Shown piece by piece: positions 8,872 through 40,452 of a stretch of DNA of 64,000 nucleotides (the first letter of the stretch is position 1; each line of letters begins with the position of its first letter). The position numbers were made by a program, and so were the translations under genes. Source of the DNA: Burkholderia pseudomultivorans (GTDB taxonomy: Bacteria; Pseudomonadota; Gammaproteobacteria; Burkholderiales; Burkholderiaceae); the NCBI RefSeq assembly GCF_001718415.1, contig NZ_CP013378.1, positions 1,240,001 to 1,304,000 on the forward strand, given 5' to 3'. The notes beneath the pieces were generated by a model. The model saw nothing but the letters and a program-made list of their open reading frames with translations. It had not been told where the DNA came from and ran no database searches.

Positions 8872-8885
8872 TTATCGAACGATAA
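8872..8885 (+). promoter_or_regulatory. Candidate TetR operator, copy 1 (VOC operon)
   Basis: TTATCGAACGATAA is an almost perfect palindrome (arms TTATCG/CGATAA). It lies just upstream of the VOC gene and is followed after 1 bp by a second copy. A possible -10 TATTAT overlaps its left side (8866-8871). The same 14-mer pattern occurs before the MFS gene, the TetR gene and the porin gene. Confidence 0.6.
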
Positions 8886-8886
8886 C

Positions 8887-8900
8887 TTATCTATCGATAA
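8887..8900 (+). promoter_or_regulatory. Candidate TetR operator, copy 2 (VOC operon)
   Basis: TTATCTATCGATAA matches the pattern TTATCNANCGATAA. It starts 15 bp after copy 1 and ends 14 bp before the VOC start codon. Tandem placement this close to the start suits a strong repressor site. Confidence 0.58.
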
Positions 8901-8914
8901 ACAAGAGGTGCCCC

Positions 8915-9397
8915 ATGCCAGTCTCCAAACTTGCGCATTACTCGATCCGCACGCTCGATCTCGAAAGATCGTGCCGGTTCTACGAACGCGTGCTCGGCTT
9001 AAGGCGCGGCTATCGCCCGCCGTTCGACTTTCCCGGCGCGTGGCTCTACAAGGGCGACGACGAAGCCGATTACGGCACGGTTCACGTCATCGGCGTCGAT
9101 CCGGCCAACCCGGACGGGCTCACGGCCTATCTCGGCGACAAGGACCTGCCGGCGACCGGCACCGGAACCGTCGACCACATCGCGTTCCTCGCGACCGGCG
9201 TCGAGGCGATGTGGCAGACGCTGCGTACCGAAAACATCGCGTGGCGCGACCGCACCGTGCCGAGCCTCGGGCTGCACCAGGTCTTCATCGAAGATCCGTC
9301 CGGCGTGACGATCGAACTCAATTTCCCTGCCGCCGAGGTCGCCGGCCTGGCACTCCCCGGCACCGCCGCATCGGCCGGTGTCGCTCATGGAGACTGA
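8915..9397 (+). CDS. VOC-family (glyoxalase/extradiol dioxygenase-like) protein
   Basis: A 160-residue single-chain vicinal-oxygen-chelate protein. The metal ligands expected for the fold are visible: an early His (KLAHYSI), a second His (VDHIAF) and a late Glu (TIELNF). Members are glyoxalases, ring-cleaving dioxygenases or isomerases, so the reaction here is unknown. It is the first gene of the large catabolic operon and lies directly behind two candidate operators. Its stop is 1 bp from the start of the flavin monooxygenase, which suggests they act on the same pathway. ATG 8915 is preceded by AAGAGGTG, a good ribosome binding site. Confidence 0.85.
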   Translation: MPVSKLAHYSIRTLDLERSCRFYERVLGLRRGYRPPFDFPGAWLYKGDDEADYGTVHVIGVDPANPDGLTAYLGDKDLPATGTGTVDHIAFLATGVEAMWQTLRTENIAWRDRTVPSLGLHQVFIEDPSGVTIELNFPAAEVAGLALPGTAASAGVAHGD

Positions 9398-9398
9398 C

Positions 9399-10625
9399 AT
9401 GAATCACAGCACTTCGACGAACCGCAAGGCCGCCATCGTCGGCGGCTCGCTCGGCGGCCTGTTCGCCGCGAATCTCCTGCTGCGCAACGGCTGGGACGTG
9501 GACGTCTACGAACGCGTGCCCGAGGCGCTGTCGGGCCGCGGCGCCGGCATCGTCACGCATCCGGAACTGTTCGACGTGATGCTCGCCGCCGGCGTGCGCA
9601 TCGACGCATCGATCGGCGTGAAGGTCGAGTCGCGCATCACGCTGGACAAGGACGGCACCGTGGTATCGGAGCGCCGGCTGCCGCAGACGCTCACCGCTTG
9701 GAGCAAGATGTACCACGTGCTGCGCGCAGCGCTGCCCGACCAGCATTACCACGCGGGCGCCGTCGTCACCGAAGTCGCGGACGGGCCGGATCGCGCCTCC
9801 GTCACGCTGTCCGACGGCTCCGTCGTGCACGCCGATCTGGTCATCGCGGCCGACGGATTCCGCTCGGCGATCCGCGAGAAGCTGCTGCCGGACGCCACGC
9901 TTCGCTATGCGGGCTACGTCGCGTGGCGAGGACTGGTCGACGAACGCAACCTGTCGGAGGCGACCCACTCGACGCTGTTCGGCAATTTCGCGTTCGGCCT
10001 GCCGCCGCACGAGCAGATTCTCGGCTATCCCGTCGCCGGCCAGGGCAACAGCACGCAGCCCGGCGAGCGGCGCTACAACTACGTCTGGTATCGCGCGACC
10101 CGCGAGGACACGGACCTGCCGAACCTGCTGACCGACGCGACCGGCAAGCTGTGGGCGGGCGGCATTCCGCCGACGCTGATCCGGCGCGACGTTCTCGACG
10201 ACATGGAACAGGCCGCGCACGCGCTGCTGGCCCCGCAGTTCGCCGAGGTCGTGGCGCGCGCGACGCAGCCGCTGTTCCAGCCGATCTACGACCTCGAAGT
10301 GCCGAACATGGCGTTCGGCCGTATCGCGCTGCTCGGCGACGCCGCATTCGTCGCACGGCCGCATTGCGGGATGGGTGTCACGAAGGCCGCCGGCGATGCG
10401 CTCGCGCTCGTCACGGCACTCGCCACGCGCGCCGACACACTCGACGCTCTGCACGAATACAGCGAAACGCGCACCGCATTCGGCGCCGCGATCGTCGAGC
10501 ACGCGCGCCATCTCGGCGCCTACATGCAGGCGCAGCTCAAGGACGACACCGAGCGCGAAATGGCCGAGCGCTATCGCACGCCGGAAGTCGTGATGCGGGA
10601 CACCGCCGTTCCGCCGCATTTCTGA
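9399..10625 (+). CDS. FAD-dependent aromatic monooxygenase (2,6-dihydroxypyridine hydroxylase-like), copy 1
   Basis: A 408-residue class-A flavoprotein hydroxylase. It shows the dinucleotide motif VGGSLGGL near residue 12, the ribityl/GD motif LLGDAAF and the GMGVTKAAGDA block after it. The N-terminal style (GG-S-L/I-GGL, ..VYER..) resembles 2,6-dihydroxypyridine 3-monooxygenase and related enzymes that hydroxylate activated (hetero)aromatic rings using NAD(P)H and O2. This substrate assignment is inference. GGAGA precedes the ATG and the gene is 1 bp behind the VOC gene. Paralogues are at 13901 and 37698, with a remnant at 21262. Confidence 0.88.
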   Translation: MNHSTSTNRKAAIVGGSLGGLFAANLLLRNGWDVDVYERVPEALSGRGAGIVTHPELFDVMLAAGVRIDASIGVKVESRITLDKDGTVVSERRLPQTLTAWSKMYHVLRAALPDQHYHAGAVVTEVADGPDRASVTLSDGSVVHADLVIAADGFRSAIREKLLPDATLRYAGYVAWRGLVDERNLSEATHSTLFGNFAFGLPPHEQILGYPVAGQGNSTQPGERRYNYVWYRATREDTDLPNLLTDATGKLWAGGIPPTLIRRDVLDDMEQAAHALLAPQFAEVVARATQPLFQPIYDLEVPNMAFGRIALLGDAAFVARPHCGMGVTKAAGDALALVTALATRADTLDALHEYSETRTAFGAAIVEHARHLGAYMQAQLKDDTEREMAERYRTPEVVMRDTAVPPHF

Positions 10626-10689: not shown

Positions 10690-11049
10690 GTGAACCACCC
10701 GATTCCGGCCGCCGCCGGCACCGCGCCCGCTCCGGACGCGCCGGCGCAGGCCCTCCATCCGCTGCTGCGCGACGCCCGCTTCCGCGCGTTCGTCAGGCGC
10801 AGAAGGCTGTTCGCCTGGTCCCTCGCGCTTGTCATGCTTGCGCTCTATTTCGCGTTCATCCTCACGCTGGCATTTTCGCCGACGCTGCTGGGACAGCCGA
10901 TCGTGCCGGGCCGCCCGACCCCGTGGGGCATCCCGGTCGGGTTCGGCATGTTCGTCGTCACGTTCGCGCTGGTCGCGCTCTACGTGTTCCAGGCCAATGC
11001 GGTGCACGACACGATCGTCGCGACCATTCGTCACGGAGGCGATCAATGA
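10690..11049 (+). CDS. DUF485 membrane protein, partner of ActP-type symporter
   Basis: A 119-residue protein with two transmembrane helices (about residues 44-70 and 84-108) and a typical DUF485 layout ([17 protein letters not shown] then membrane). DUF485 genes (YjcH type) are regularly placed directly before acetate-type sodium/solute symporters, as here. It starts with GTG at 10690 behind a strong AAGGAG, and its stop overlaps the ATG of the symporter (ATGA). It probably assists assembly or activity of that transporter. Confidence 0.85.
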
Positions 11050-12680
11050 AACGCCTGCTTCTCGCATCGATGGCCGCGGCCGGCTCCGCACCGGCGTTCG
11101 CGGCCGGGCCTGCCGCGCTGGCGCACGGGCACAATCCGGTCGCAATCGGCATGTTCCTGCTGTTCGTCGCGTCGACGCTCGTCATCACGCGCTGGGCCGC
11201 GCGCAGGAACCACAGTGTGGCCGATCACTACGCGGCGGGCGGCAAGATCACCGCGATCCAGAACGGCTGGGCGATTGCCGGCGACTACATGTCGGCGGCG
11301 TCGCTGCTCGGCATCTCCGCGCTGGTGTTCACCAGCGGCTATGACGGCCTGATCTATTCGGTCGGCTTCCTCGCGAGCTGGCCGATCATCCTGTTCCTGA
11401 TCGCCGAGCCGCTGCGCAACCTCGGCAAGTACACGCTCGCCGACGTCGTGTCCTATCGCCTGCGGCAACGGCCGATCCGCGCGTTCGCGGCATCGAGCTC
11501 GATCGTCATCGTGCTGCTGTACCTCGTGTCGCAGATGGTCGGCGCGGGCAAGCTGGTCGAACTGCTGTTCGGGCTGAACTACACGGTCGCCGTGCTGATC
11601 GTCGGCGTGCTGATGGTTGTCTACGTGTTCTTCGGCGGAATGCTGGCGACCACCTGGATCCAGATCATCAAGGCCGTGCTGCTGCTCGCCGGCGCAGCCT
11701 TCATGGCGATCATGGTGCTGAGCCGCTTCGGCTTCAGCCTCGATGCGCTGTTCGCGCAGGCGATCCTGGTCCACCCGAAACACGCGGCGATCATGCGCCC
11801 GGGCGGGCTGGTCTCCGATCCGGTCTCGGCGGTCTCGCTCGGTCTCGCGCTGATCTTCGGCACGGCCGGCCTGCCGCACATCCTGATGCGCTTTTTCACG
11901 GTCGGCGACGTCAAGGCGGCCCGCAAGAGCATCCTCTATGCGACGGGCATCGTCGGCGCCGGCTATGTGCTGATCATCATCATCGGCTTCGGCACCATCG
12001 CGCTCGTTGCGTCGGACCCGCAGTACCACGACGCGTCCGGCGCCATCGCGGGCGGCGTGAACATGGTCGCGATCCATCTCGCGCATGCGGTCGGCGGCAA
12101 CGTGTTCCTCGGCTTCATTTGCGCGGTCGCGTTCTCGACCATCCTGGCCGTGGTCGCCGGCCTGACGCTCGCCGGTTCGTCGGCGATCTCGCACGATCTC
12201 TATGCGAACGTGCTGCGTCGCGGCCGCGCGTCCGACCACGAGGAGATGCGCGTGGCGCGCGCAACGACGCTGGTGCTCGGCGTGCTCGCGATCCTGCTCG
12301 GCATCGCGTTCGAGAAACAGAACATCGCGTTCATCGTCAGCCTGACGTTTTCGATCGCGGCGAGTTCGAATTTTCCTGTGCTGCTGCTCTCGATCTACTG
12401 GCGCGGCCTCACCACGCGCGGGGCGGTACTGGGCGGCCTGCTTGGGCTCGCCACCGCGGTCACGCTCACCGTGCTCAGTCCGACCGTCTGGGTGCAGGTA
12501 CTCGGTCATGCGCATGCGGTCTATCCGTACGAATATCCGGCGCTGTTCTCGATGGCGGCGGCGTTCGTCGGCGTCGTCCTGTTCTCCGTGACCGATCGCT
12601 CGGCCGGCGCGCGACGGGAACGCGAGCAGTTCGACACGCAGCTCGTCGCATGCGAAATGGGCATGACGCCACGCGGCTGA
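11046..12680 (+). CDS. ActP-like cation/carboxylate symporter (SSS family)
   Basis: A 544-residue inner-membrane transporter of the sodium:solute symporter family, with about 13 helices and a cleavable-looking N-terminal segment (ending AFAAGPA), as in ActP. The signature [17 protein letters not shown] and the SSS block around [10 protein letters not shown] are clear. E. coli ActP takes up acetate and other small carboxylates. Its position inside an aromatic catabolic operon suggests uptake of the pathway's organic acid substrate or product. It is translationally coupled to the DUF485 gene. Confidence 0.88.
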
Positions 12681-12720: not shown

Positions 12721-13854
12721 ATGCTGAATTGCACCTGCTGTATCTCTCCGGCGCGGCGCCGCGCGCTCGGCGCATTGGCCGCGCTTGCCGGCAGCGCCGT
12801 CGCCGGCGGCCGCGCGTCGGCGGCCGAACCCGTAAGCGCGCCGGCCGCCCCGGTCGCCCTGCCGCTGCACCGCCCCCGCTCGATCGACATTCACGCGCAC
12901 TACTACCCCGAAAGCTTTTGCGACCTGGTCGGCGGCGAAGGCAAACGGTTCGGCGGCTCGTTCGCGTGCGACGACACGTCGTTCACGTTCCGCACGCCCG
13001 CCGGCGGGCTGGGCCCGTTGCCGATGAAGTTCATCGACGTCGATGCACGATTGCGCGACATGGATGCGTCCGGCGTCGACGTGCAGGCGCTGTCGCTCAG
13101 CGTACCGATGGCGTACTGGGGCGATCGTTCGTTCAACGCGAAGCTCGCGCGTGCCTGGAATACGGCCGCCTCGCGCGTCTACCAGCGTCACCCGACACGC
13201 TTCGTCGTCCTCGCGACGCTGCCGATGCTCGATGCCGCGGACGCGATCGACGAACTCGAGCGCGCGGTGCAATTGCCAGGCGTGCGCGGCATCTACATGG
13301 GCACCAACATCGACAACCGCGATCTCGACGATCCGCGGTTCGCGCCCGTCTTTGCGCGCATCGAGCAGCTGAACCTGCCGGTGTTCCTGCATCCGCAGCA
13401 GACCGTCGGCGGCGCGCGGCTCGGCGACTACTACCTGAGCAACCTGCTCGGCAATCCGTTCGATACCGCGATCGCGGGCTCGCATCTGATCCTCGGCGGC
13501 GTGCTCGATCGTTATCCGAACCTGCAGGTCACGCTGCCGCATGCGGGCGGCGCGCTGCCGATCCTCGTCGGGCGCCTCGACGCCGGCTGGACCGTCCGTC
13601 CGGAAACGCGCCGGCTCGCGCAGAAGCCGAGCAGCTACCTGCGGCGCTTCAGCTACGACACGGTGTCTCATTCGGGGCCGGTGCTGGATTTCCTGATCGC
13701 CCACGTCGGCATCGACCGGCTCGTGCTCGGCAGCGACTATTGTTTCGACATGGGCTACGCGCAGCCGGTCCGCTTTCTCGACCGCCTCGACCTCACGGCC
13801 GAACAGCGCGCGCTGATCCTCGGCGGCAATGCGGGCAAGCTGCTGCGGATCTAG
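12721..13854 (+). CDS. ACMSD-like metal-dependent amidohydrolase with Tat-type signal
   Basis: A 377-residue member of the aminocarboxymuconate-semialdehyde decarboxylase/amidohydrolase-2 family. Zinc-site motifs are visible: HAH in SIDIHAHYYP, FLHP, the PHAGG block and GSDYCFD near the C-terminus. Relatives are non-oxidative decarboxylases or hydrolases of aromatic breakdown products. Unusually, it begins with ARRRALGALAALAG...RASA, which looks like a twin-arginine export signal, so it may work in the periplasm, as the molybdenum hydroxylase below probably does. The ATG at 12721 has only a weak ribosome binding site. It lies 40 bp after the symporter. Confidence 0.82.
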   Translation: MLNCTCCISPARRRALGALAALAGSAVAGGRASAAEPVSAPAAPVALPLHRPRSIDIHAHYYPESFCDLVGGEGKRFGGSFACDDTSFTFRTPAGGLGPLPMKFIDVDARLRDMDASGVDVQALSLSVPMAYWGDRSFNAKLARAWNTAASRVYQRHPTRFVVLATLPMLDAADAIDELERAVQLPGVRGIYMGTNIDNRDLDDPRFAPVFARIEQLNLPVFLHPQQTVGGARLGDYYLSNLLGNPFDTAIAGSHLILGGVLDRYPNLQVTLPHAGGALPILVGRLDAGWTVRPETRRLAQKPSSYLRRFSYDTVSHSGPVLDFLIAHVGIDRLVLGSDYCFDMGYAQPVRFLDRLDLTAEQRALILGGNAGKLLRI

Positions 13855-13900
13855 CGCGGCGGCCGGCGAGCGCCCTCTGTCGAACACGGAGTCACGCACG

Positions 13901-15031
13901 ATGAAGATAGTCATTGCAGGCGGTTCGATCGCCGGCCTCACGGCCGCGCTGACGCTCGATTGCATCGGGCACGACGTGACGATCTACGAACGCTCGCCCG
14001 TCCCGCTGCGCGGCCAGGGCGGCGGCGTGGCCGTGCTGCGTCGCATGATGGCATTCCTCGAGCAGCACGGCCGTCATTGCCGCCACATGATCAGCGTACC
14101 GACCCACCGGCGGCGCTGGATCGACCGCGACGGCACGCTCACGCGCGACGAGCCCGAGATGCTGCCGTTCTCGTCGTGGGACGCCGTCTACCGGTCGCTG
14201 TGCGAGACCTTGCCGGCCGGGCGGATTCGCTATGGCCGCACCGTGACCGGCTTCACACAGGACGCCGACGGCGTCGACGTCCAGATCGACGACGAACGGC
14301 TGCGCGCCGATGTGCTGCTCGCCGCCGACGGCACCGGTTCGCGGTTGCGCGCACGGCTCTTTCCCGACTACGCGCCGTCGTTTGCCGGCTATCTCGCATG
14401 GCGAGGCATCGTCGACGAAGCCGGGTTCGACGTGTCCGCCATCGCGACGCTGGTCGAGAACATGACGCTCCACAAGGCGCCGGGCGAGCTGTTCATGGCC
14501 TTCCTGATTCCGGCGCTGGACGGATCGCTCGAACCGGGCACACGGCGCTTCAACTGGCTCTGGTATCGCAACGAAGCCGATCCGGACGCGCTGCGCCGAC
14601 ACCTGACCGATCGAACCGGCAAAGTGCATCACGCCTCGCTCCATCCCGGGCAGCTTGCCGACGAGGCCGTCGCGACGCTGCGCTCGCTCGCCGCCGAGCG
14701 GCTGCCGGCAGTGCTGTCGCAACTGGTGCTGGCGACCCGCGCGCCGTTCCTGCAGGTCATCTTCGATGCGCTGAGTCCCGACTTCGTCGACGGCCGCGTC
14801 GCGTTGATCGGCGACGCTGCCTGCACGGTGCGCCCCCATACCGCGTCCGGCACGTCGAAGGCGGCGCACGATGCGGTGTCGCTCGCCGAAGCGCTGCCGG
14901 CGAATGCGACCGATGTCGCGGAGCGACTGGCGCGATGGTCCGCGCAACGACGCACGGAAGTAAAGTCGCTGCTGGAAAAGGGGCCGCAACTCGCCGCGTC
15001 GTTCGACCTCGGCACGCCTCACCGCCGATAG
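13901..15031 (+). CDS. FAD-dependent aromatic monooxygenase, copy 2
   Basis: A 376-residue flavoprotein hydroxylase of the same subfamily as the gene at 9399. It has AGGSIAGL at residues 6-13, IYERSP, the GQGGGVAV loop and GDAACTVRPHTASGTSKAAHDA around residues 305-327. It likely hydroxylates a (hetero)aromatic intermediate. It lies 46 bp behind the amidohydrolase, with GGAG nine bases before the ATG. The remnant at 21262-21569 is closest to this copy (TAALTL, GVAVLRRMMAFLEQHG). Confidence 0.87.
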   Translation: MKIVIAGGSIAGLTAALTLDCIGHDVTIYERSPVPLRGQGGGVAVLRRMMAFLEQHGRHCRHMISVPTHRRRWIDRDGTLTRDEPEMLPFSSWDAVYRSLCETLPAGRIRYGRTVTGFTQDADGVDVQIDDERLRADVLLAADGTGSRLRARLFPDYAPSFAGYLAWRGIVDEAGFDVSAIATLVENMTLHKAPGELFMAFLIPALDGSLEPGTRRFNWLWYRNEADPDALRRHLTDRTGKVHHASLHPGQLADEAVATLRSLAAERLPAVLSQLVLATRAPFLQVIFDALSPDFVDGRVALIGDAACTVRPHTASGTSKAAHDAVSLAEALPANATDVAERLARWSAQRRTEVKSLLEKGPQLAASFDLGTPHRR

Positions 15032-15207
15032 CGGGCACGCGCATGCCGATTCATAACGATTAATTTTCGTTGCGCGACATGGCCTCCTACGCTCGATTGC
15101 ACGGCGGACGCATTGCGCGAATCCCGGTCCGCCGACTCCCGTCCGGTGCTGCGACATCCGCGCCGGCGTCCCGAACCGGCTTTTCATTGGAACAGCGAGA
15201 TCCAGTC

Positions 15208-15906
15208 ATGCGCAATCCTAAACTCGACGTCCTGACACCCCAGAACAGCCAGATGCTGTTCATCGACCTGCAGCCCCAGATGGCGCTCGGCGTGCAGTCG
15301 ATCGACCGGCAAACGCTGAAGAACAACGCGGTCGGGCTGGCGAAGGCAGCCCGGGCCTTCAACATCCCAACCACGATCACCACGGTGGAGACCGAAAGCT
15401 TTTCCGGCTATGCGTTCCCGGAGCTGCTCGATGTATTCCCGGACCACCCCGTGCTCGAACGCACGTCGATGAATTCGTGGGACGACCAGAAAGTGCGCGA
15501 CGCACTCGCGAAAAACGGCCGCAAGAAGGTGGTAGCCGCCGGGTTGTGGACCGAAGTGTGCAATCTCACCTTCGCGCTGTGCGCGATGGACGAAAGTGAA
15601 TACGAGATCTACATGGTCGCCGATGCGTCGGGCGGCACGTCGAAGGACGCGCACGATTACGCGATGCAGCGCATGATCCAGGCGGGGGTCGTGCCGGTGA
15701 CGTGGCAGCAGGTGCTGCTCGAATGGCAGCGCGACTGGGCGCGTCGGGAAACCTACGAGGCCGTGATGGACATCGTCCGTGAGCATTCCGGCGGATACGG
15801 GATGGGAGTCGACTATGCGGCCACGATGGTCCACAAGCAGCCTCAGCGCACGAAGCAGGCGCACACGATGCTCGCGCCCGTGCCGGCGCCGGTTTCGAAC
15901 AAGTGA
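15208..15906 (+). CDS. Isochorismatase-like cysteine hydrolase (YcaC type)
   Basis: A 232-residue isochorismatase-superfamily hydrolase. The expected triad is suggested by FIDLQPQM (Asp), the conserved Lys in RKKVVAAGLWTEVCN and the Cys in TEVCNLTF. Members hydrolyse amides such as maleamate or N-carbamoyl compounds, or vinyl ethers; YcaC-type enzymes are of unknown substrate. In an N-heterocycle pathway an amidase step is expected after ring cleavage, which fits but does not prove this role. The start is ATG 15208 (MRNPKLD), not the upstream in-frame codons. A strong hairpin follows the stop. Confidence 0.84.
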   Translation: MRNPKLDVLTPQNSQMLFIDLQPQMALGVQSIDRQTLKNNAVGLAKAARAFNIPTTITTVETESFSGYAFPELLDVFPDHPVLERTSMNSWDDQKVRDALAKNGRKKVVAAGLWTEVCNLTFALCAMDESEYEIYMVADASGGTSKDAHDYAMQRMIQAGVVPVTWQQVLLEWQRDWARRETYEAVMDIVREHSGGYGMGVDYAATMVHKQPQRTKQAHTMLAPVPAPVSNK

Positions 15907-16053: not shown

Positions 16054-16179
16054 ATGAATTCCGTCGCGAATCGACGCCGGTGCGCACGCGCCCAGCGGCC
16101 GAATCGTTCGTCGATACGTCGCGCCCACGCGACCGCCGCGCGCGTGCGCAGCGAACCGATCCGCGTGGAGCCCGCATGA
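16054..16179 (+). CDS. Possible small arginine-rich leader ORF
   Basis: A 41-codon reading frame starts at ATG 16054 behind a good ribosome binding site (ATGGAG, 7-8 bases upstream). Its TGA overlaps the ATG of the cytochrome gene (ATGA). The product would be basic (many Arg) with no recognisable domain. The well-placed ribosome binding site and exact overlap suggest a translationally coupled leader rather than a functional protein, but coding is not proven. Confidence 0.35.
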   Translation: MNSVANRRRCARAQRPNRSSIRRAHATAARVRSEPIRVEPA

Positions 16180-17456
16180 AGCACAAACGACTCTGGTTCG
16201 GCGCGGCCGGCGTCGCGCTCGTCGGCCTGGCGATCGCGATCGGCATCATGGTTCAGCCTTCGATCGCGCCGATCGATCCGCCCGCGCGCGCGTCGTTCGA
16301 TCCGCAGCTCGTTCGCGCCGGCGCGCGCGTCGTCGCGCTCGGCGACTGCGTCGTCTGCCACACCGCGAAGGACGGCCAGCCGTTCGCCGGTGGCCTGCCG
16401 CTCGTGACGCCGTTCGGCACGATCTACGCGACCAACATCACGCCGGATGCCGACACCGGCATCGGCCGCTGGTCGCGGGACGCATTCGCGCGTGCGCTGC
16501 GCAGCGGGATCGCCCGCGACGGCCATCTGCTCTACCCGGCGTTTCCGTACATTCATTTCACGCGCATGTCCGACGAGGACATCTCGGCCGCCTACGCGTA
16601 CCTGATGACACGCACGCCCGTTCACGCGACCGCGCCGGCGAACGACCTGATTTTCCCGCTCAACTTCCGTCCGCCGCTCGCGTTCTGGAACCTCCTGTTC
16701 CTGCGCAAGGGCGCGTACCAGCCCGACCCGTCCCAATCCGCGCAATGGAATCGCGGCAAGGCGCTGGTCGACGGCCTCGGGCACTGCGCTTCCTGCCATT
16801 CGCCGCTGAACGCGATCGGCGGCGAACAAGCGGGCAAGGCGTTCGACGGCGGCATCGTCGACGGCTGGGAAGCACCGCCGCTCAATACGCTCGCCAGTGC
16901 ACCCCGCCCGTGGACGCAGGCGCAGCTCGTCACGTACCTGCGCACCGGCCGCGCGAGCGAGCACGGCGCAGCGGCCGGCCCGATGCTGCCCGTCACGCGC
17001 GATCTCGCCACGGTGCCGGTCGAAGACGTCGAGGCGATCGCCGCGTACCTGCTGTCGATCCAGAAGCCGGGCGGCAGACGGCCGGCGGCGAGCATCGTCG
17101 AACGCAGCGCGACGTCGCCCGCTGCGCAACGCGGCGCGGTGCTGTTCCAGGCTTCGTGCGCGCAGTGCCACGGCCCCGCTGCGCCGATGCAGTCGATCGG
17201 CGAACGGCCGACGCTCGCGTTCAGCACGGCCGTCAACGCCGACACGCCGCGCAACGCGATCCAGATGATGTTCAACGGCATCGGCTGGCACGGCGAGGAC
17301 ACGCTGAACTACATGCCGTCCTACCTCGACCAGTACGATGACGCGCAGATCGCGGACCTCGCCGCCTACCTGCGCGCCACCTACTCCGATCGCCCCGCGT
17401 GGAGCGATATCGATTCCCTGGCCGCCAAACTCAGAAAGGAGGACGGCGCGCGATGA
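16176..17456 (+). CDS. Tri-haem cytochrome c subunit of molybdenum hydroxylase
   Basis: A 426-residue protein with an N-terminal membrane anchor/signal (residues 7-25) and three c-type haem sites: CVVCH at 58-62, CASCH at 203-207 and CAQCH at 327-331. This is the three-domain cytochrome found with alcohol or aldehyde/N-heterocycle dehydrogenases. Here it precedes the 2Fe-2S and Mo subunits and should carry electrons from the Mo enzyme to the respiratory chain at the periplasmic face of the inner membrane. ATG 16176 has GGAG five bases upstream. Its stop overlaps the next ATG by 4 bp. Confidence 0.9.
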   Translation: MKHKRLWFGAAGVALVGLAIAIGIMVQPSIAPIDPPARASFDPQLVRAGARVVALGDCVVCHTAKDGQPFAGGLPLVTPFGTIYATNITPDADTGIGRWSRDAFARALRSGIARDGHLLYPAFPYIHFTRMSDEDISAAYAYLMTRTPVHATAPANDLIFPLNFRPPLAFWNLLFLRKGAYQPDPSQSAQWNRGKALVDGLGHCASCHSPLNAIGGEQAGKAFDGGIVDGWEAPPLNTLASAPRPWTQAQLVTYLRTGRASEHGAAAGPMLPVTRDLATVPVEDVEAIAAYLLSIQKPGGRRPAASIVERSATSPAAQRGAVLFQASCAQCHGPAAPMQSIGERPTLAFSTAVNADTPRNAIQMMFNGIGWHGEDTLNYMPSYLDQYDDAQIADLAAYLRATYSDRPAWSDIDSLAAKLRKEDGAR

Positions 17457-17953
17457 TCACCCTCACCGTGAATGGCGTGCGGCACACGCTCGACATCGAT
17501 CCGTCCACGCCGCTGCTGTACGCGCTGCGCAACGACCTGCATCTGCACGGCGCGAAGTTCGGCTGCGGCCTCGGGCAATGCGGCGCATGCACCGTGATCG
17601 TCGACGACAAGCCGATGTTCTCGTGCCTGATGCCGGTCGCCGCGCTCGGCGAGCGCCGCGTCAGGACCATCGAGAGTCTCGGCAGCGCCGAGCATCCGGG
17701 CAAGCTTCAGCAGGCGTTCATCGATCACCAGGCCGCGCAGTGCGGCTATTGCATCGCTGGCATGATCATGCGCGCGCAGGCGCTGCTCGAACGCAATCCG
17801 AAGCCGACCGAGCGCGAACTGCGCGCGCACATGGAACCGAACCTGTGCCGCTGCGGCACCCACATGCGGATCCTGGCCGCCATTCGCCAGGTCGCCGGCC
17901 TGCCGGCCCCGGAGCAGGCTGCCGCTCCCGTGATGATCAGCAAGGGAATCTGA
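17453..17953 (+). CDS. 2Fe-2S subunit of xanthine-oxidase-family molybdenum hydroxylase
   Basis: A 166-residue iron-sulfur subunit (IorA/CoxS type). The plant-ferredoxin-type cluster ligands are C38, C43, C46 and C58. The second cluster ligands are C97, C100, C132 and C134 (QCGYC and LCRCG). It transfers electrons from the Mo centre to the cytochrome c encoded upstream. ATGA overlap on the 5' side and TGATG overlap on the 3' side show tight translational coupling of the three subunits. It has no signal of its own and would be exported together with the Tat-bearing Mo subunit. Confidence 0.93.
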   Translation: MITLTVNGVRHTLDIDPSTPLLYALRNDLHLHGAKFGCGLGQCGACTVIVDDKPMFSCLMPVAALGERRVRTIESLGSAEHPGKLQQAFIDHQAAQCGYCIAGMIMRAQALLERNPKPTERELRAHMEPNLCRCGTHMRILAAIRQVAGLPAPEQAAAPVMISKGI

Positions 17954-20214
17954 TGAACGCACCCGACGACATCGACGAAGGCCGCCGGCACTTCATGGTC
18001 TCCGGCGCGCTTTTCGTCGCGTTCAGCCTCGCGCCGACGGCGCGCGCCGCCGCCGAAGTCGTGCTCGCCGACGAAGGCGCAGCCGTGCACGTGTCCTCGG
18101 CCACCGAAACGCTGGCCGGCAGCCTGAAGACCAACCCGCTGCTCGATGCATGGATCAAGATCGCGCCCGACGGCAAGGTCACCGTGTTTACCGGCAAGGT
18201 CGAACTCGGCACCGGCGTGCGCACCGCATTGCTGCAGGTGGCGGCCGAGGAGCTGAACATGAAGCCCTCGCTGATCACGTTCCTGACCGCCGACACCGGC
18301 GCGTCGCCGGACGAAGGCCTGACGGCCGGCAGCCACACGATGGCCGACAGCGGCACCGCGCTGCTGAACGCCGCCGCACAGGTGCGCGGCCTGCTGGTCG
18401 ACGGCGCGGCGAAGCAGTTCGGCGTCGACCCGCGCACGCTGACGGTCGCCGACGCGGTCATCAAGGCGCCGGACGGCCGCACGATGCGCTACGGCGACGC
18501 GATCCGCACCGTCGACCTGCATCGCAACGCGACGCCGACCTCTCCGCTGAAACGTCCGGACACGTTCGCGGTGATCGGCACGTCGCTTCCGCGCGTCGAC
18601 ATTCCGAACAAGGTCACGGGCGGCATCAGCTACGTGCAGGACATGGAGCTGCCCGGCATGCTGCACGCGCGCGTCGTGATGCCGCCCGTCTACGACGCGA
18701 AACTGCTGTCGTTCGACGAAGCCGCGATCCTGAAGATGCCGGGCGTCGTGCGCATCGTGCGCAACGGCAGCCTGCTCGCGGTCGTCGCGCAGGGCGAATG
18801 GCAGGCGGTGGTCGCGCAGCGCGCGCTGGCCGCCGGCAGCCGCTGGTCGCCCGGCCGGGCGCTGCCCGATCGCAAGACCGTGCATCAGGACCTGAAGCGA
18901 ATCGCGACGCAGCGCATCGAGATCGCCAACACGCATGCCGACGTCGCGCCGGCGACGAAGACGCTCACCGCCACCTTCCTGAAGAACTACCTGCTGCACG
19001 GCTCGATCGGGCCGTCGTGCGCGGTCGCGCATCTCGAGCACGGCACGCTGACCGTGTGGACGCACTCGCAGGGTGTCTATCCGCTGCGCGACGCGCTCGC
19101 CGAGATGCTGTCGATGCCGAAGGCGACGGTCCGCTGCATTCACACCGAGGGCTCCGGCTGCTACGGGCACAACGGCGCGGACGACGCGGCCGCGCATGCG
19201 GCGCTGATCGCGGCCGCGATGCCCGGCAAGCCGATCCGCGTGCAATGGATGCGCGAGCAGGAACATACGTGGGACCACTTCACGCCGGCGATGGTGACCG
19301 AACTCAGTGCCTCGCTCGACGCGAACGGCCGCATCGTCGACTGGCACTACGCGCTGTGGAGCAGCTCGCACAACGAGCGCATCGTCAATGCGGGCCGGCT
19401 GCTGCCTGCGCGCATGCTGGAGCCGCCGTTCGTGTCCGCGCCGTCGACGCCGATGCTGCAGCCGGAGGGCGGCGGCGATCGCAACGCGATCCCGCTCTAT
19501 GCGCTGCCGAACATGCACATCGTCAACAACTTCTCGCCGACGATGCCGCTGCAGACATCGGCGATGCGCTCGCTCGGCGCGCATACGAACATCTGGTCGA
19601 TCGAAAGCTTCATGGACGAACTGGCGCACGCCGCGGGCATCGATCCCGTCGAATTCCGGCTGCGGCACATGCAGGATCATCGCGCGCGCCAGGTGATCCA
19701 GCTCGCGGCAACCAGGTTCGGCTGGCCGCGGCCGCCGCGCGAGCGCAACCGCGGCGTCGGCTTCGCGTTCGGCAAGTACAAGAACCTGATGGCCTACGTC
19801 GCGATCGCGATCGACATCTCGGTCGTGCCGGAAACGGGCCAGGTGACGCTCGAGCACGCGGAAGTCGCCGTCGATGCCGGCCAGATCGTGTCGCCGGACG
19901 GCATTCGCAACCAGATCGAAGGCGGCATCGTGCAGGCCGCCAGCTGGACGCTGTACGAGGCGCTGCAATACGACTCGCAGCGCATCCGCAGCTTCGACTG
20001 GAGCAGCTATCCGATCCTCCGTTTTGGCGCCGCGCCGCAAAGCATCAACGTGCACCTGATCAATCGTCCGGGCGCGCCGTTCCTCGGTGCGGCCGAGGCC
20101 TCCATGGGGCCGACCGCTGGCGCGCTGGCCAATGCGATCTTCGACGCCACTGGCCAGCGCATGCGGGAAATGCCGTTCGCCGGCGACGGGCTCAGGCAGC
20201 GGATCGACGCGTAG
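17953..20214 (+). CDS. Molybdopterin-binding catalytic subunit (isoquinoline 1-oxidoreductase beta-like)
   Basis: A 753-residue catalytic subunit of the IorB/aldehyde-oxidase branch of the xanthine oxidase family. An RRHFMVSGALFVAF segment at the N-terminus looks like a twin-arginine signal, indicating a periplasmic enzyme. Mo-cofactor blocks include FTGKVELGTGVRTA, EGSGCYGHNGADDAA and QTSAMRSLGAHTN. The catalytic Glu is expected at E715 in GAAEASMGP. Such enzymes hydroxylate N-heteroaromatics or oxidise aldehydes with water as oxygen source; with two flavin hydroxylases nearby I favour an N-heteroaromatic substrate (inference). It is the last gene of the operon. Confidence 0.9.
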   Translation: MNAPDDIDEGRRHFMVSGALFVAFSLAPTARAAAEVVLADEGAAVHVSSATETLAGSLKTNPLLDAWIKIAPDGKVTVFTGKVELGTGVRTALLQVAAEELNMKPSLITFLTADTGASPDEGLTAGSHTMADSGTALLNAAAQVRGLLVDGAAKQFGVDPRTLTVADAVIKAPDGRTMRYGDAIRTVDLHRNATPTSPLKRPDTFAVIGTSLPRVDIPNKVTGGISYVQDMELPGMLHARVVMPPVYDAKLLSFDEAAILKMPGVVRIVRNGSLLAVVAQGEWQAVVAQRALAAGSRWSPGRALPDRKTVHQDLKRIATQRIEIANTHADVAPATKTLTATFLKNYLLHGSIGPSCAVAHLEHGTLTVWTHSQGVYPLRDALAEMLSMPKATVRCIHTEGSGCYGHNGADDAAAHAALIAAAMPGKPIRVQWMREQEHTWDHFTPAMVTELSASLDANGRIVDWHYALWSSSHNERIVNAGRLLPARMLEPPFVSAPSTPMLQPEGGGDRNAIPLYALPNMHIVNNFSPTMPLQTSAMRSLGAHTNIWSIESFMDELAHAAGIDPVEFRLRHMQDHRARQVIQLAATRFGWPRPPRERNRGVGFAFGKYKNLMAYVAIAIDISVVPETGQVTLEHAEVAVDAGQIVSPDGIRNQIEGGIVQAASWTLYEALQYDSQRIRSFDWSSYPILRFGAAPQSINVHLINRPGAPFLGAAEASMGPTAGALANAIFDATGQRMREMPFAGDGLRQRIDA

Positions 20215-20268: not shown

Positions 20269-21186
20269 ATGGATACCTTGCTTTCGATGCGCGTGTTTAC
20301 GCGCATCGTCGAGACGGGCAGCTTCACGCGCGCGTCGGACACGACCGGGCTCACGACGCCGCGCGTGTCCGCGCTGCTGAGCACGCTGGAGCAGCATCTC
20401 GGCTGCCGGCTGCTGAACCGCACCACGCGCCGGATCTCGCTGACCGAGGACGGGCAGGCCTATTACGAACGCTGCGTCGGCGTGCTGCGCGAGATCGACG
20501 ACATGGAAGCGGCGGTATCGCAGGCGCGCAACGTGCCGCGCGGCCGGCTGAGAGTGAACCTGCCGCCGGCGATGGCCAAGCAGATCATGGTGCCCGCGCT
20601 GCCGGAATTCCTCGCTGCCCATCCGGGCATCTCGGTCGAACTCGGTGTCACCGATCGCCAGATCGATCTGGTCGGCGAAGGGGTCGACTGCGTCGTGCGC
20701 ATCGGCGCGCTAGACGACTCGGGGCTGGTCGCGAAACGGATCGGCAGCCTGACCACCTGCACCTGCGCGGCCCCCGCGTATCTCGAACGATGCGGCGCCC
20801 CCGAAACGGTGGACGAGCTCGCGCAGCACGTCGCGATCAGCCACATCTCGGCCGACACCGGCCGGCCGCGTCCCTGGGATTACCTGGTCGACGGCGAAAC
20901 GCGCATCGTGCAGATGTGCGGCACCGTCGCGGTCAATGACGCCGATACCTACATCGCGTGCGGCGTCGCCGGAATCGGCCTGATCAAGACCTCGCTGTAC
21001 CTGGTCGAGCCGTATCTGAAATCGGGGCGCCTGCGCGAGGTGCTGACCGATTTCAACACGCCGCCGCGGCCGATCTCGATCCTGTATCCGCCCAACCGGC
21101 ATACGCCCGTCAAGCTCAAGGTGTTCGTCGACTGGCTGGCGGGACTGTTCGCGCAGATTCCGACGCTGCAGGGCAGGCGCAGCTGA
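20269..21186 (+). CDS. LysR-family transcriptional regulator
   Basis: A 305-residue LysR regulator. The N-terminal winged helix (MDTLLSMRVFTRIVETGSF, ..RLLNRTTRRISLTEDG) is followed by a substrate-binding domain of the AaeR/DmlR type (PAMAKQIMVPALPEFLAAHP, ..ADTYIACGVAGIG). It reads in the same direction as the molybdenum hydroxylase genes and starts 54 bp after them, so it may be co-transcribed and respond to a pathway compound. ATG 20269 is preceded by GGGAGA at a suitable distance. Confidence 0.9.
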   Translation: MDTLLSMRVFTRIVETGSFTRASDTTGLTTPRVSALLSTLEQHLGCRLLNRTTRRISLTEDGQAYYERCVGVLREIDDMEAAVSQARNVPRGRLRVNLPPAMAKQIMVPALPEFLAAHPGISVELGVTDRQIDLVGEGVDCVVRIGALDDSGLVAKRIGSLTTCTCAAPAYLERCGAPETVDELAQHVAISHISADTGRPRPWDYLVDGETRIVQMCGTVAVNDADTYIACGVAGIGLIKTSLYLVEPYLKSGRLREVLTDFNTPPRPISILYPPNRHTPVKLKVFVDWLAGLFAQIPTLQGRRS

Positions 21187-21569: not shown

Positions 21570-21637
21570 ACCCGCCTACGGTCCGTCCCCTTTGCATGGC
21601 ACGCAATGCTCGATTGCGCGCCGGACCCATTCCGCTG

Positions 21638-21655
21638 TTATCGATCGATCAATAA
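21638..21655 (+). promoter_or_regulatory. Candidate TetR operator (MFS promoter)
   Basis: TTATCGATCGATCAATAA contains the 14-mer TTATCGATCGATCA, which differs at one defined position from TTATCNANCGATAA. It lies about 100 bp upstream of the MFS start codon and is followed by GCTTGACATCAATG, where TTGACA is a good -35 hexamer (21658-21663). An operator next to a -35 box suits repression. Confidence 0.5.
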
Positions 21656-22971: not shown

Positions 22972-23137
22972 ACCGGCGCCGGCACCGGTTCACGCGCGAA
23001 CGCCGCACCGGTCGTTCGCGCGCCGGAACGCTGCCGGCACATCGCTTACCGAACTTTACGCGGGGCCCGTCGTTGCGCCGTCGCCATCGAACGCTACGCA
23101 GCGACGCCCGCCCCGCATCACGCAAAAGGAATCCATC

Positions 23138-30020: not shown

Positions 30021-30418
30021 GGCCACCTCCAGGTTCCCCACGATGACCGCCGTGTGAACATGGCCGTTCACTCAGGCGGAAGTCCGCATCCGGCCAGCGT
30101 TGCAAGCTGGATGCAAAGACTCAGAAAGCAAGCGGAGTGTAACCGCCGCATAAACAAAAATCTTGAAGGAAAATGCGCTGACGGCCGCCGCCACCGCATG
30201 CCGCCCCGCGCGCGCCGCGCCCACATAAACGGGGCAACATCATTGGCGGGCGCACCTTCGCGTGCGGGCCGCGCGTCGCGCGGCACGGGTCGATGCCGCA
30301 CTGGTATTGCGTCGGATGTGGACATTTGTTCAAGTCGTCTTGGGACTGTCAGGCGCGCCGTATAAACTGCTCGTAAAAACGCTCGCGCGCCGCCCCTCCA
30401 ACGAAGGATCGTTCCGTC
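30021..30418. other. Divergent regulatory region
   Basis: This 398-bp gap lies between the leftward ATPase regulator and the rightward AraC gene. It includes an AT-rich patch near 30150-30170 (ATAAACAAAAATCTTG) and another near 30358-30380 (TATAAACTGCTCGTAAAAAC), plausible promoter cores for the two genes. No coding sequence is supported. Confidence 0.35.
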
Positions 30419-36581: not shown

Positions 36582-36595
36582 TTTTCGATCGATAG
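36582..36595 (+). promoter_or_regulatory. Candidate TetR operator (tetR autoregulation)
   Basis: TTTTCGATCGATAG matches TTATCNANCGATAA at all but two defined positions and contains the symmetrical core CGATCG. It lies 31 bp upstream of the TetR start codon, where an autoregulatory site is expected. Confidence 0.45.
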
Positions 36596-36626: not shown

Positions 36627-37346
36627 ATGACCGAAACCAAACGCAGCGCGCCCGCCCGCGAACGCGGGACGGACGCCGACGGCAACGCCGTCACGCCGGG
36701 CCGCCGGCTCGCGCCGGAGGCGCGCGAGCGGCAGATCGTCGAGAAAGCGATCGAGCACTTCGCCACGCACGGCTTTTCCGGCAGCACGCGCGAACTCGCG
36801 CGGCAGATCGGCGTCACCCAGCCGCTGCTGTACCGGTACTTCCCGAGCAAGGAGGCACTGATCGATCGCGTCTACGACGAGATCTACACGTGGAACCCCG
36901 ACTGGGAAAAACTGATCGCCGATCGCGCGGTCCCGTTGCAGGAGCGGCTCGTCGCGTTCTACCGCGCGTACGCGCAAACCATCCTGCGACGCGAATGGAT
37001 CCGCACCTTCATCTTCGCGGGGCTCAGCCGCGAGGGGTTCAACACGCGCTACCTGTCGCGGCTGCGCGAACGCGTCTTCCTGCCGGTGCTGCGCGAGCTG
37101 CGCCACGAGTACGAGATCGCCACGCCGACGACCGAGGCGCAGCGCAATGCCGAAATCGAACTGGTCTGGAGCCTGCACGCGAGCATCTTCTATTTCGGCG
37201 TTCGCAAATGGGTATACGGCCTGCCGGTGCCCGACGATCTCGACACTGAAATCGAACGGTTGATCGACGCGTTCCTGAATGGCACGCCCGCCGCGCTGAA
37301 GCAACTCGCGTCGGGGGGGACCGCCCGGCGGCGCCGGCGCGCGTGA
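36627..37346 (+). CDS. TetR-family transcriptional regulator
   Basis: A 239-residue regulator. The N-terminal helix-turn-helix (IVEKAIEHFATHGFSGSTRELARQIGVTQPLLYRYFPSKEAL) is at residues 35-78, and a helical ligand-binding domain follows. The first ~30 residues are a basic, disordered extension. ATG 36627 fits AGGAG at about 8 bases; an out-of-frame ATG at 36623 does not. I infer that it represses genes carrying TTATCNANCGATAA-like sites (its own promoter, the VOC operon, the MFS/OYE unit and the porin), because a weaker version of this palindrome lies directly before it. Confidence 0.9.
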   Translation: MTETKRSAPARERGTDADGNAVTPGRRLAPEARERQIVEKAIEHFATHGFSGSTRELARQIGVTQPLLYRYFPSKEALIDRVYDEIYTWNPDWEKLIADRAVPLQERLVAFYRAYAQTILRREWIRTFIFAGLSREGFNTRYLSRLRERVFLPVLRELRHEYEIATPTTEAQRNAEIELVWSLHASIFYFGVRKWVYGLPVPDDLDTEIERLIDAFLNGTPAALKQLASGGTARRRRRA

Positions 37347-37697: not shown

Positions 37698-38840
37698 ATG
37701 AGCAGCGTTTCGAGCCCGCTGGCGGTCGTCATCGGCGGATCGGTGGGCGGGCTGTTCGCGGCGACCGCATTGCGGGCGGCCGGATGGCGCGTCAAGGTGT
37801 TCGAGCAATCGCCGAACGATCTCGACAGTCGCGGCGGCGGCATCGTGCTGCAGGCGCCGATCGAACGCGCGTTCGCGTTCGGCGGCGTGCCTTTGCCACG
37901 CGATGCAGGCGTCGATTCCGTCGACCGGATCTATCTCGACGAGGACGACCGGATCGTGCAGCGCCTGTACATGCCGCAAACGCAGACCGCATGGAACGTG
38001 ATCTATACGGCGCTGAAGCGCGCGCTGCCCGCCGACGTCGTGCACGCCGGCGTATCGTTCGAGCGGTTCACGCGGGAAGGCGACGACGTGATCGCGCATT
38101 TCGCGGACGGCCGCGCCGAGCGGGCCGACCTGCTGGTTGGCGCCGACGGCGGCCGCTCGAACGTCCGCGCGCAGTTGCTGCCCGATGCGCGGCCTGCCTA
38201 CGCGGGCTATGTCGCGTGGCGCGGCCTCGTCGACGAGCACCTGCTGCCCGACACGGTGCTGCGGGTGTTGCGCGACCGCTTCACGTTTCAACAAGGCGAC
38301 GCGCATCTGTTCCTGACTTACCTCGTGCCCGGCCGCGACGGTGCGACCGAGCCGGGCAAACGCCGCGTGAACTGGGTCTGGTACCGGCGGCTCGCACCGG
38401 ACCGGCTGCCGCCGCTGTTCCTCGCGCAGGACGGCACACAGCGCGACGGCTCGCTGCCGCCAGGCGCGATGCGCGACGATAACCGGCTCGAACTCGTCGA
38501 CGCCGGCCGTCGCCTGCTCGCGCCGACGCTCGCCGCGCTCGTCGAGGCGACGCACGCGCCGTTCGCGCAATCGATCCTGGATCTCGCGGTCGATCGCATG
38601 GCGTTCGGCCGCGCGGTGCTGATCGGCGACGCGGCCTGCTTGGTCCGACCGCACACGGCCGCCGGTGTCGCGAAGGCGGCGGAGAACGCGGTCGGTCTTG
38701 CCGAGGCATTGCGCGGCGTCGTGCGCGGCACCGCATTCGACGCCGCGCTGTCGCGCTGGGAAGCGGTTCAGCTCGCGACCAATGCGTCGCTGTCCGAACT
38801 CGGCATCTCGCTCGGCACCCGCGTCATGGGGCGCGCTTGA
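37698..38840 (+). CDS. FAD-dependent aromatic monooxygenase, copy 3
   Basis: A 380-residue flavoprotein hydroxylase of the same subfamily as those at 9399 and 13901. It has IGGSVGGLFAATALRAAGW, the RGGGIVLQ loop, an internal AYAGYVAWRGLVDE block shared with copy 1, and GDAACLVRPHTAAGVAKAAENA near the C-terminus. It likely hydroxylates an aromatic or hydroxypyridine-like ring. GGGAGG lies before the ATG. It is separated from copies 1 and 2 by over 20 kb but sits beside the TetR gene and convergent to the porin gene (19-bp gap). Confidence 0.88.
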   Translation: MSSVSSPLAVVIGGSVGGLFAATALRAAGWRVKVFEQSPNDLDSRGGGIVLQAPIERAFAFGGVPLPRDAGVDSVDRIYLDEDDRIVQRLYMPQTQTAWNVIYTALKRALPADVVHAGVSFERFTREGDDVIAHFADGRAERADLLVGADGGRSNVRAQLLPDARPAYAGYVAWRGLVDEHLLPDTVLRVLRDRFTFQQGDAHLFLTYLVPGRDGATEPGKRRVNWVWYRRLAPDRLPPLFLAQDGTQRDGSLPPGAMRDDNRLELVDAGRRLLAPTLAALVEATHAPFAQSILDLAVDRMAFGRAVLIGDAACLVRPHTAAGVAKAAENAVGLAEALRGVVRGTAFDAALSRWEAVQLATNASLSELGISLGTRVMGRA

Positions 38841-38859
38841 GCGGCCGGCAAAGCGCGCG

Positions 38860-40098
38860 TCAGAAGCGATGCGCGATGCCGACGGCATCCACGAACTGCT
38901 GGCGCGAAGCCGACGGCGTCATCCCGTTGATCGACGCGACTGCGGGCTGTCCGAGCGAATCGGTGCCGGCCGCGCGCTGATAGACCGCGATCATGTAGAC
39001 GTCCGTGCGTTTCGACAGCGCATAGTGCACGCCGGCGTTGACCTGGTGGTAATGCGCGCCGATCGCGTCGGGCCCGCGCGCGAGCGTGTACGAATACGAC
39101 GCGCCGAGCGACACGGCCGCGCCGATCCGGTAGCTGCCATTGAGTTCGACCGTATTGAAGCTCGCGCTGCCCGCATAGCCGCGCGGATTGGGCCCCGCGT
39201 CCGAGCCCAGTCCGACGAAGCGCGTGTTCGTATAGACCGCGCCGATCGTCGCATTGCCGAGCGCATAGCTCGCGCCCGCGCCGACCGTCTGCTCGCGGCT
39301 CGCCGATGCGTAGCCGGCCATCACCGGATTGCGCTCGGGCACCGTCGCCGACCCGAACGAGCCGATATTGTTCGCCGCGCTGCCGCCGCCGTTCGGCTGT
39401 CCGCCCCACATCGACACGTTGGGCGCGGACGCGCTGAGATAGCCGACGCCGATCCGCAACGAACTGCCCGCGTAGCCGACCCCGGCCGACATGACCTGAT
39501 TCCGGCCCACGTGGCCCGGGACACCGCCCAACGCGTACATCGCACCGGCCGACCATCCATGCCAGACCGGCGTCGAGAACTTCACCGCATTGTTCTGCCT
39601 GACCGTCAGGCCCAGATCGTCGATGTCGTCCGGATGCGCGGTAATGAATCCGCCCCACTGCGATACCGTCGTGAGCGGCGCAAGAAAATCGATCACCGGC
39701 GAATATTGACGGCCGAGCATCACGCTGCCGAACCGCTCGTTCGACACACCGACGAATGCCTGCCGGCCAAACAGCGCACCGCCCTGCCCGAGCGAGCCGT
39801 TCGCGACGCTGAATCCGTTCTCCAGCGCGAATACCGCGAACGTTCCCGCGCCGAGGTCTTCCCGCCCGCGAATGCCGAATCGGCTGCCGACATAGGCCGA
39901 GGTCGTGGCGTCCTGAAGCGATATCTGCCGGTCGCCGTGAAGCGCTCCCGCCACGCGCCCGGTCTGTGCATTGCTGACGAATACCACATCGGGATTGACA
40001 ATGCCGTACAAGGTCACACTGCTCTGAGCGCACGCGCCCCACGCCCATCCAAGCGGCAACGCGGCCGCGACTATCCGTACTGCTCTCTCGATCGACAT
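38860..40098 (-). CDS. Gram-negative porin (Porin_4 family)
   Basis: A 412-residue outer-membrane trimeric porin of the betaproteobacterial OmpC/Porin_4 type. The signal peptide ends GACAQ, and the mature protein begins SSVTLYGIVNPDVVF as usual. Strand motifs SRFGIRGREDLG and LGRQYSP are present, and it ends with a terminal Phe (GIAHRF) required for barrel assembly. It probably admits the catabolic substrate. ATG 40098 has a GAGAGAAG ribosome binding site. A perfect TTATCAAACGATAA site (reading in the gene's direction) lies about 185 bp upstream, linking it to the VOC operon. Confidence 0.9.
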   Translation of the reverse strand: MSIERAVRIVAAALPLGWAWGACAQSSVTLYGIVNPDVVFVSNAQTGRVAGALHGDRQISLQDATTSAYVGSRFGIRGREDLGAGTFAVFALENGFSVANGSLGQGGALFGRQAFVGVSNERFGSVMLGRQYSPVIDFLAPLTTVSQWGGFITAHPDDIDDLGLTVRQNNAVKFSTPVWHGWSAGAMYALGGVPGHVGRNQVMSAGVGYAGSSLRIGVGYLSASAPNVSMWGGQPNGGGSAANNIGSFGSATVPERNPVMAGYASASREQTVGAGASYALGNATIGAVYTNTRFVGLGSDAGPNPRGYAGSASFNTVELNGSYRIGAAVSLGASYSYTLARGPDAIGAHYHQVNAGVHYALSKRTDVYMIAVYQRAAGTDSLGQPAVASINGMTPSASRQQFVDAVGIAHRF

Positions 40099-40452
40099 AT
40101 CTTCTCTCTCGTCCGACTGGAACATTCGACAAACCGATTCGGCGACAGCTGGAATAGCCGTACGCAGACATCCACCCTCTGTAGTCCGAATAATATTGCT
40201 CAGGCGACTACCGCCAGGCGCGACGCGGCTGTCCAACGACCCGCCTGGAGACGGGGTGTCGCGCATCCGCCTTCCACGATACTTATCGTTTGATAAATTA
40301 TAGATCGCAGGACACGTTTGGGGCGGGGATCGCGAGTCAGTGTTTACCCGTTTTCGATTTTTTTGAACGATGGAGTCTCAAGGCGGCAGGTCCACGATTT
40401 TCGATGAATCGCGTCGCCGCTCTCGATGGATCGACGATGCGTGCGGGCAGTT
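40099..40452. other. Porin promoter region
   Basis: 354 bp upstream of the porin gene, ending at the stop of ogt. It contains the candidate operator at 40283-40296 and an AT-rich stretch with AATAATATTGC near 40190-40200 that could hold the core promoter. The porin transcript would then have a leader of roughly 90-180 bases. No coding sequence is supported. Confidence 0.4.
40283..40296 (-). promoter_or_regulatory. Candidate TetR operator (porin promoter)
   Basis: On the strand of the porin gene the site reads TTATCAAACGATAA, a full match to TTATCNANCGATAA, the same pattern found twice before the VOC operon. Its orientation relative to the gene is the same as there. Confidence 0.55.

Follow-up and report, generated by a model that had tools for sequence, protein, structure and literature searches.

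Does one repressor tie together the scattered promoters of a catabolic gene cluster in Burkholderia pseudomultivorans? The question is raised by a stretch of 64,000 nucleotides from contig NZ_CP013378.1 (assembly GCF_001718415.1, positions 1,240,001 to 1,304,000), here called the window, in which an initial annotation had linked four promoters and the gene of a TetR-family regulator through a 14-bp palindrome. Comparison of DNA and protein sequences makes it very likely that the TetR protein (36627–37346, plus strand) represses a dispersed regulon through the operator TTATC-N4-GATAA; a putative activator would work through a second element, GGGTWWACAC, at the promoters of a VOC gene and a porin gene. 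What is observed directly is where the sites lie, that they are conserved and that they are linked to TetR.

All five palindromes of the initial annotation are confirmed by pattern matching. Two stand in tandem upstream of the VOC/monooxygenase operon, TTATCGAACGATAA at 8872–8885 and TTATCTATCGATAA at 8887–8900, in a 15-bp register. TTATCGATCGATCA (21638–21651) lies upstream of an MFS transporter gene and an OYE-family oxidoreductase gene and is found in the MFS promoters of the same genus. TTTTCGATCGATAG (36582–36595) is located 31 bp 5′ of the tetR start codon. These four are given without strand. The fifth, TTATCAAACGATAA, is read on the minus strand at 40283–40296, upstream of the porin gene and directly behind a TATAAT hexamer.

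The window contains 11 matches to TTATCNANCGATAA with at most two mismatches, both strands counted and a weak extra match at 54631 included; 100 shuffled windows gave 0.93 on average and never more than 4. Base composition alone predicts about 0.5 exact TTATC-N4-GATAA sites in the genome. Four are present in the 7.96 Mb of the three contigs of this genome, and three of them fall within the 31-kb cluster (Poisson, 6e-7). Places with at most two mismatches to TTATCGATCGATAA number 21 in the genome, five of them in this cluster (Poisson, 3e-8). The earlier judgement that the palindromes are unlikely to arise by chance is thus borne out. A relaxed form of the tandem pattern matches the genome only at the pair at 8872–8900.

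Matches elsewhere in the genome speak against exclusivity to this cluster. Three of the four exact sites lie in the cluster, but the fourth is inside a predicted open reading frame (ORF), and 16 of the 21 two-mismatch places are elsewhere, eight outside and eight inside ORFs predicted by a crude frame-GC gene caller. A Pfam scan of nine genes neighboring these other sites found no link to the cluster. One genome site, which resembles TCATCGATCGATAT (G000:C2:3252900), is upstream of an LprI-like gene in a stretch that holds no relative of the window porin. These 16 matches, along with lone exact-arm sites in genomes lacking TetR, would suit an origin by chance or from generic AT-rich promoter sequence. 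Such an origin is hardly credible and is ruled out by the shuffles, the clustering, the distribution of the exact tandem, and the conservation of the VOC promoters across genera with a fixed 15-bp register. Because weak or lone matches occur elsewhere in the genome and in TetR-less genomes, membership in the regulon cannot be read from a single match or from one with two mismatches; the diagnostic features are position, tandem register and conservation.

Relatives of TetR are present in 102 of 398 genomes of the family and in 9 of 25 genera, with the seven best candidates per genome scored. Twenty stretches from other genera were selected for carrying TetR, and 18 of them have a VOC relative nearby. 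Across all stretches, the operator with at most one arm mismatch is found in 36 of 38 VOC promoters, compared with 6 of 1900 shuffled sequences. Other promoters carry it rarely: 1 of 21 for the amidohydrolase gene AmdH2, 1 of 27 for the monooxygenase gene FMO3, 1 of 22 for the cytochrome c gene CytC, and 0 of 18 for OYE. The tandem pair with its 15-bp register is preserved in 34 of the 38 VOC promoters. In all 34, the outward-facing half-sites TTATC and GATAA are invariant and the inner positions vary, a pattern that suggests two cooperating dimers at the pair. The exact tandem occurs in 18 of the 398 genomes, all in the window's genus and all with TetR. A Burkholderiales metagenome-assembled genome, with a TetR 52–53% identical to that of the window, has one site upstream of tetR and one upstream of VOC.

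Within the genus, 65 genomes were sampled. Full-length TetR and VOC are each found in 20 of them: 19 have both, one has TetR alone, one has VOC alone, and 44 have neither (Fisher, 3e-14, uncorrected for shared ancestry). Three of the 20 VOC matches (G022, G080, and G074) contain an in-frame stop in the aligned stretch. Every genome with full-length TetR has at least one exact-arm site, and 19 of these 20 have at least two, versus 2 of the 45 without it (G023 and G079). Four genomes with only a remnant of tetR or a broken copy (G013, G023, G042, and G067; L164–L167) lack VOC as well, as expected if TetR serves the VOC operon.

The single sites are also conserved among close relatives. Of 24 same-genus loci, 22 have TTTTCGATCGATA(G/A) or a close variant about 45 bp 5′ of tetR, although the gene is decayed in two of these, and the sequence flanking the site has diverged. 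The two loci without the site, G013 and G023, retain the C-terminal end of the gene alone. Two tetR entries of the promoter scan are superseded by this 24-locus comparison, in which both sites are seen: the stretch used for G045 begins within the gene, which makes that row invalid, and a late alignment start caused G050 to be missed. All 16 MFS promoters from the genus in the stretches compared carry the form TTATC-N4-GATCA, with G074 as a seventeenth; G080 has a two-mismatch site at the same place and no MFS match. Five genomes have a porin orthologue with an identity of at least about 70%, and the exact operator precedes the gene in G000, G024, and G016.

Operon rearrangements provide a further line of evidence. 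The site is found upstream of a unit of CytC and a molybdopterin-dependent dehydrogenase gene (MoCo) in G300, upstream of OYE (two mismatches) in G362, and upstream of AmdH2 in G369. G074 carries a complete tandem promoter upstream of AmdH2-CytC-MoCo-LysR1, and its VOC-FMO1-SSF-porin unit, which includes a monooxygenase and a symporter gene, has a copy of its own. In G074 and G362, the porin gene lies within the VOC-FMO1-SSF operon, behind the operators. That sites turn up at new units after rearrangement points to a shared regulator and is hard to explain otherwise. Together with the co-occurrence of TetR and VOC, their nearness in other genera, and the site 5′ of tetR in the genus, this argues for the earlier proposal that one TetR may act on several promoters through the palindrome.

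As a separate observation on G074 (L155, L156, and L293), its VOC-FMO1-SSF-porin genes are 67–75% identical to those of the window, versus 83–93% for the other regulon genes, which suggests a separate acquisition.

The TetR protein contains an N-terminal TetR_N helix-turn-helix domain (PF00440, 51 bits with a cut-off of 24). An AlphaFold model (mean predicted local distance difference test score 76.9, predicted template-modeling score 0.67) predicts the all-helical fold of the family, and the best PDB matches listed for it belong to the TetR family, among them HapR, SmcR, and TetR(D), with template-modeling scores of about 0.4–0.6. A putative palindromic operator is placed over the target promoters and over the regulator's own promoter, in the window and in the genus. 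The recognition helix, TQPLLYRYF, is common to the motif-bearing relatives aligned.

The palindromes could instead be bound by LysR1, LysR2, AraC, or a SARP/STAND-type regulator, with tetR being just a target. The genes of all four lie within the cluster, relatives of LysR2 recur near the locus in several genera, and a site upstream of tetR would equally fit a target. This alternative is judged unlikely. None of the four regulators recurs in every other-genus stretch. G185 and G373 have none of them (E-value 1e-12), yet keep TetR, present there by selection, and the VOC operators. In the G016 stretches, no AraC was seen and the SARP and LysR2 relatives found are just 39% and 52% identical, yet the sites are kept. 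The LysR2 promoters themselves lack a genuine site, the one match among 27 (G021) being an artefact of a cut stretch. Short palindromes of the 5-4-5 form that span the transcription start are characteristic of TetR rather than LysR regulators.

The VOC and porin promoters contain a second element that was absent from the earlier reading and is new here. In the VOC promoter, the element GGGTTAACAC (8819–8828, plus strand), the proposed activator box, is followed by a proposed −10 hexamer, TATTAT (8866–8871, plus strand), which abuts the first operator. The porin promoter has the same layout on the minus strand, with the element GGGTAAACAC at 40340–40349 and the proposed −10 hexamer TATAAT at 40297–40302 abutting the operator. 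Alignment of VOC promoters gives the general arrangement: GGGTWWACAC is followed after about 37 bp by TANNAT or a similar hexamer, with the operator immediately adjoining. The GGGTWWACAC element is present in 20 of 20 same-genus VOC promoters and in 30 of all 38. Within the window, the pair of GGGT element and TANNAT occurs at the VOC and porin promoters only (0.00 expected), and the GGGT element alone occurs three times (0.96 expected). The composite with the operator occurs 41 times in 34 of the 398 family genomes and in 7 of 25 genera; a reversed control gives none. All 34 genomes belong to the 102 with TetR (hypergeometric, 7e-23, uncorrected for shared ancestry). The MFS promoter has a different candidate for a second-regulator site, a strandless dyad with the core GCAA-N7-TTGC (21601–21619), which is found in 16 of 16 aligned same-genus MFS promoters about 20 bp upstream of the operator. 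GGGTWWACAC and this dyad are both read as putative activator sites.

An activating or dual role for TetR at its sites would agree with the VOC promoters, which have no clear −35 consensus but do have conserved upstream sequence. It is quite improbable: in the VOC and porin promoters the operators lie directly behind the −10 hexamer, a position that would block RNA polymerase, and activation could be served by the distinct element further upstream.

For repression, we infer the following from the layout. TetR would recognize TTATC-N4-GATAA, two dimers sitting side by side on 8872–8900, just downstream of the −10 hexamer of the VOC/monooxygenase operon. Single dimers would bind behind the porin −10 (40283–40296), upstream of MFS/OYE (21638–21651) and at the regulator's own promoter (36582–36595), where the less perfect site may be suited to autoregulation. 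Occupancy directly behind the −10 would repress transcription. TetR would be released by a ligand, most likely the substrate of the pathway or one of its first products, and an activator would bind GGGTWWACAC, which starts 47 bp upstream of the −10, at the VOC and porin promoters. A wider reading is offered tentatively: GGGTWWACAC, 37 bp, and TANNAT with an abutting TetR operator, in tandem at the main operon, may form a portable cassette that has been kept with one catabolic pathway in at least seven genera despite operon splits, fusions, and duplications. It would place the porin and the oxidizing enzymes under the logic "activator AND NOT TetR", with an unrecognized activator and an undescribed catabolic route.

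Besides the scattered genomic matches described above, several observations weigh against this model. FMO3, the neighbor of tetR, has no operator within 250 bp upstream, and genes for an AraC and two LysR regulators are likewise part of the cluster. Outside the genus, just 8 of 20 loci have a site upstream of tetR even when two mismatches are allowed, and none of seven MFS promoters has a site within 260 bp; G399 has one 383 bp upstream of MFS. Within the genus, G062 has TetR without VOC, a counter-example to the joint loss of the two, and G079 has VOC and operators with no TetR found in an assembly that is 82% complete. Single exact-arm sites occur in 18 of the 45 genomes without full-length TetR. 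Homologues in G034 and G026 (about 50% identity) have an identical recognition helix, yet no site near tetR; each genome has one match with one mismatch, kilobases away from the gene. The g28 homologues, about 38% identical, lack the TTATC-N4-GATAA motif.

In the small g28 genomes, the adjacency of TetR, VOC, and FMO1 is kept (seen in two), and the recognition helix reads THTLLYHYF in two aligned rows. Most of the g28 tetR promoters aligned (L227, L228, and L278–L292, with L283 left out for having no true tetR promoter) share another palindrome, ATTGTTCAACAAT, or a near form. The altered helix with its own palindrome is a lead.

Among published systems, the closest one found is the PaaR regulon of Burkholderia cenocepacia, which follows the same logic with another operator and other genes. 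PaaR (BCAL0210) controls the phenylacetate regulon through ACCGACCGGTCGGT, located between −10 and −35 (PMC2770484). Both systems combine a TetR-type repressor with a catabolic regulon of several promoters and an inverted repeat in the core promoter; for PaaR, too, the repeat at the operon of the regulator itself scores lower, and a genome-wide matrix scan pointed to its pathway genes. The two differ in operator sequence and place, the present one being TTATC-N4-GATAA in tandem behind the −10 of the main operon. The present system also has the GGGTWWACAC element upstream of more than one promoter, counts a porin and transporters among its members, and serves other pathway genes. The cluster does not belong to the PaaR regulon, as its operator differs from ACCGACCGGTCGGT and no paa gene was recognized among the cluster genes scanned. 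If the substrate proposed below is right, NicR/NicS would be a further parallel, a local repressor of N-heteroaromatic acid catabolism; NicR is of the MarR type (PMC10269826), and the present operon encodes an ACMSD-like amidohydrolase besides the VOC protein and monooxygenases of the PRK07236 type. No nic equivalog reached the cut-off among the NCBIfam matches listed, nic proteins and operators not having been compared directly. None of four operator strings occurs in the literature searched. At QacR-type operators, two TetR dimers occupy one promoter, as is proposed for the tandem pair. The QacR operator is described as a dual overlapping repeat (PMC2770484), whereas the palindromes of the present pair are both complete and stand one after the other at a 15-bp spacing. 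The arrangement is a well-supported new example of a familiar type of control.

For an uncharacterized catabolic pathway, the locus thereby supplies a specific operator, a repressor candidate, and a delimited set of genes; the pathway is common to Burkholderia, Paraburkholderia, Caballeronia, Trinickia, and relatives. Since the inducer that releases TetR should be a compound of the pathway, the substrate should be findable. The natural operator variants, together with TetR orthologues whose identity ranges from 98 down to about 53%, also constitute a data set on TetR–operator recognition.

As to that substrate, we infer, in line with the initial annotation, that the regulon targets may serve one compound family. 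The solved relatives, of pyridine type for FMO1 and FMO3 and ACMSD-like for the amidohydrolase, lead to the low-confidence suggestion that the substrate is perhaps a hydroxylated N-heteroaromatic acid. No pathway was matched by the enzyme set, as judged from the solved-structure relatives of the two monooxygenases and the amidohydrolase. G074, one of the carriers, is apparently Burkholderia sp. IMCC1007, which is reported to degrade fusaric acid, although the authors point to fus and nic genes (PMC10293998).

The main operon is presumed to comprise nine co-directional genes on the plus strand. It begins with VOC (glyoxalase/dioxygenase superfamily, PF00903; 8915–9397) and FMO1 (9378–10625), an FAD monooxygenase whose best solved relative is 2,6-dihydroxypyridine hydroxylase (2VOU). 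There follow an ActP-like SSF sodium:solute symporter (10923–12680), the amidohydrolase-2 family protein AmdH2 (12721–13854), whose best solved relatives are ACMSD decarboxylases, FMO2, the second PRK07236-type FAD monooxygenase (13829–15031), and an isochorismatase-family hydrolase (15070–15906). CytC (16080–17456) is the probable electron acceptor of the molybdenum enzyme, of which MoCo (17338–20214) is the large subunit, and LysR1 (20269–21186) ends the presumed operon. The MFS transporter (21754–22971) and the OYE-family flavin oxidoreductase (22862–24250) are encoded downstream on the plus strand. FMO3 (37698–38840, plus strand) is the third PRK07236-type monooxygenase, and 2,6-dihydroxypyridine hydroxylase is its closest relative among solved structures. 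The Gram-negative porin is encoded on the minus strand by a long ORF (38863–40266). Its start codon probably lies near 40098, at M57 of the long ORF, where the alignment of relatives begins; the operator would then be about 185 bp upstream of it.

Related regulators with Trans_reg_C and ATPase domains flank or interrupt the cluster (window 27123–30071 and 2–820; L110 10462–11820; L111 2822–4234), and one of them could be the missing activator.

Two further palindromes were seen in relatives. One is conserved where a gene for a FixJ-like response regulator begins, some 9.4 kb to the left of the VOC operon, and is carried by G024, G045, G062, G063, G064, G072, G077, and G079 (L111 2191, L114 2164, L117 2059, L120 2009, L123 17460, L150 10480, L153 16531, and L163 4486); its conservation is not independent, because the stretch may be coding. 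The other, TCATCGATCGATAT, precedes an additional porin gene in the vicinity of FMO3, its product 33% identical, in G045, G062, G063, and G072 (L116 6779, L122 4872, L152 2800, and L154 4048).

Beside the regulon, the window holds three related PF09859-type oxygenase stretches (41136–41996, 42235–42927, and 44634–45341) around an Ada-type methyltransferase gene (42975–44105), apparently a DNA-alkylation-repair cluster.

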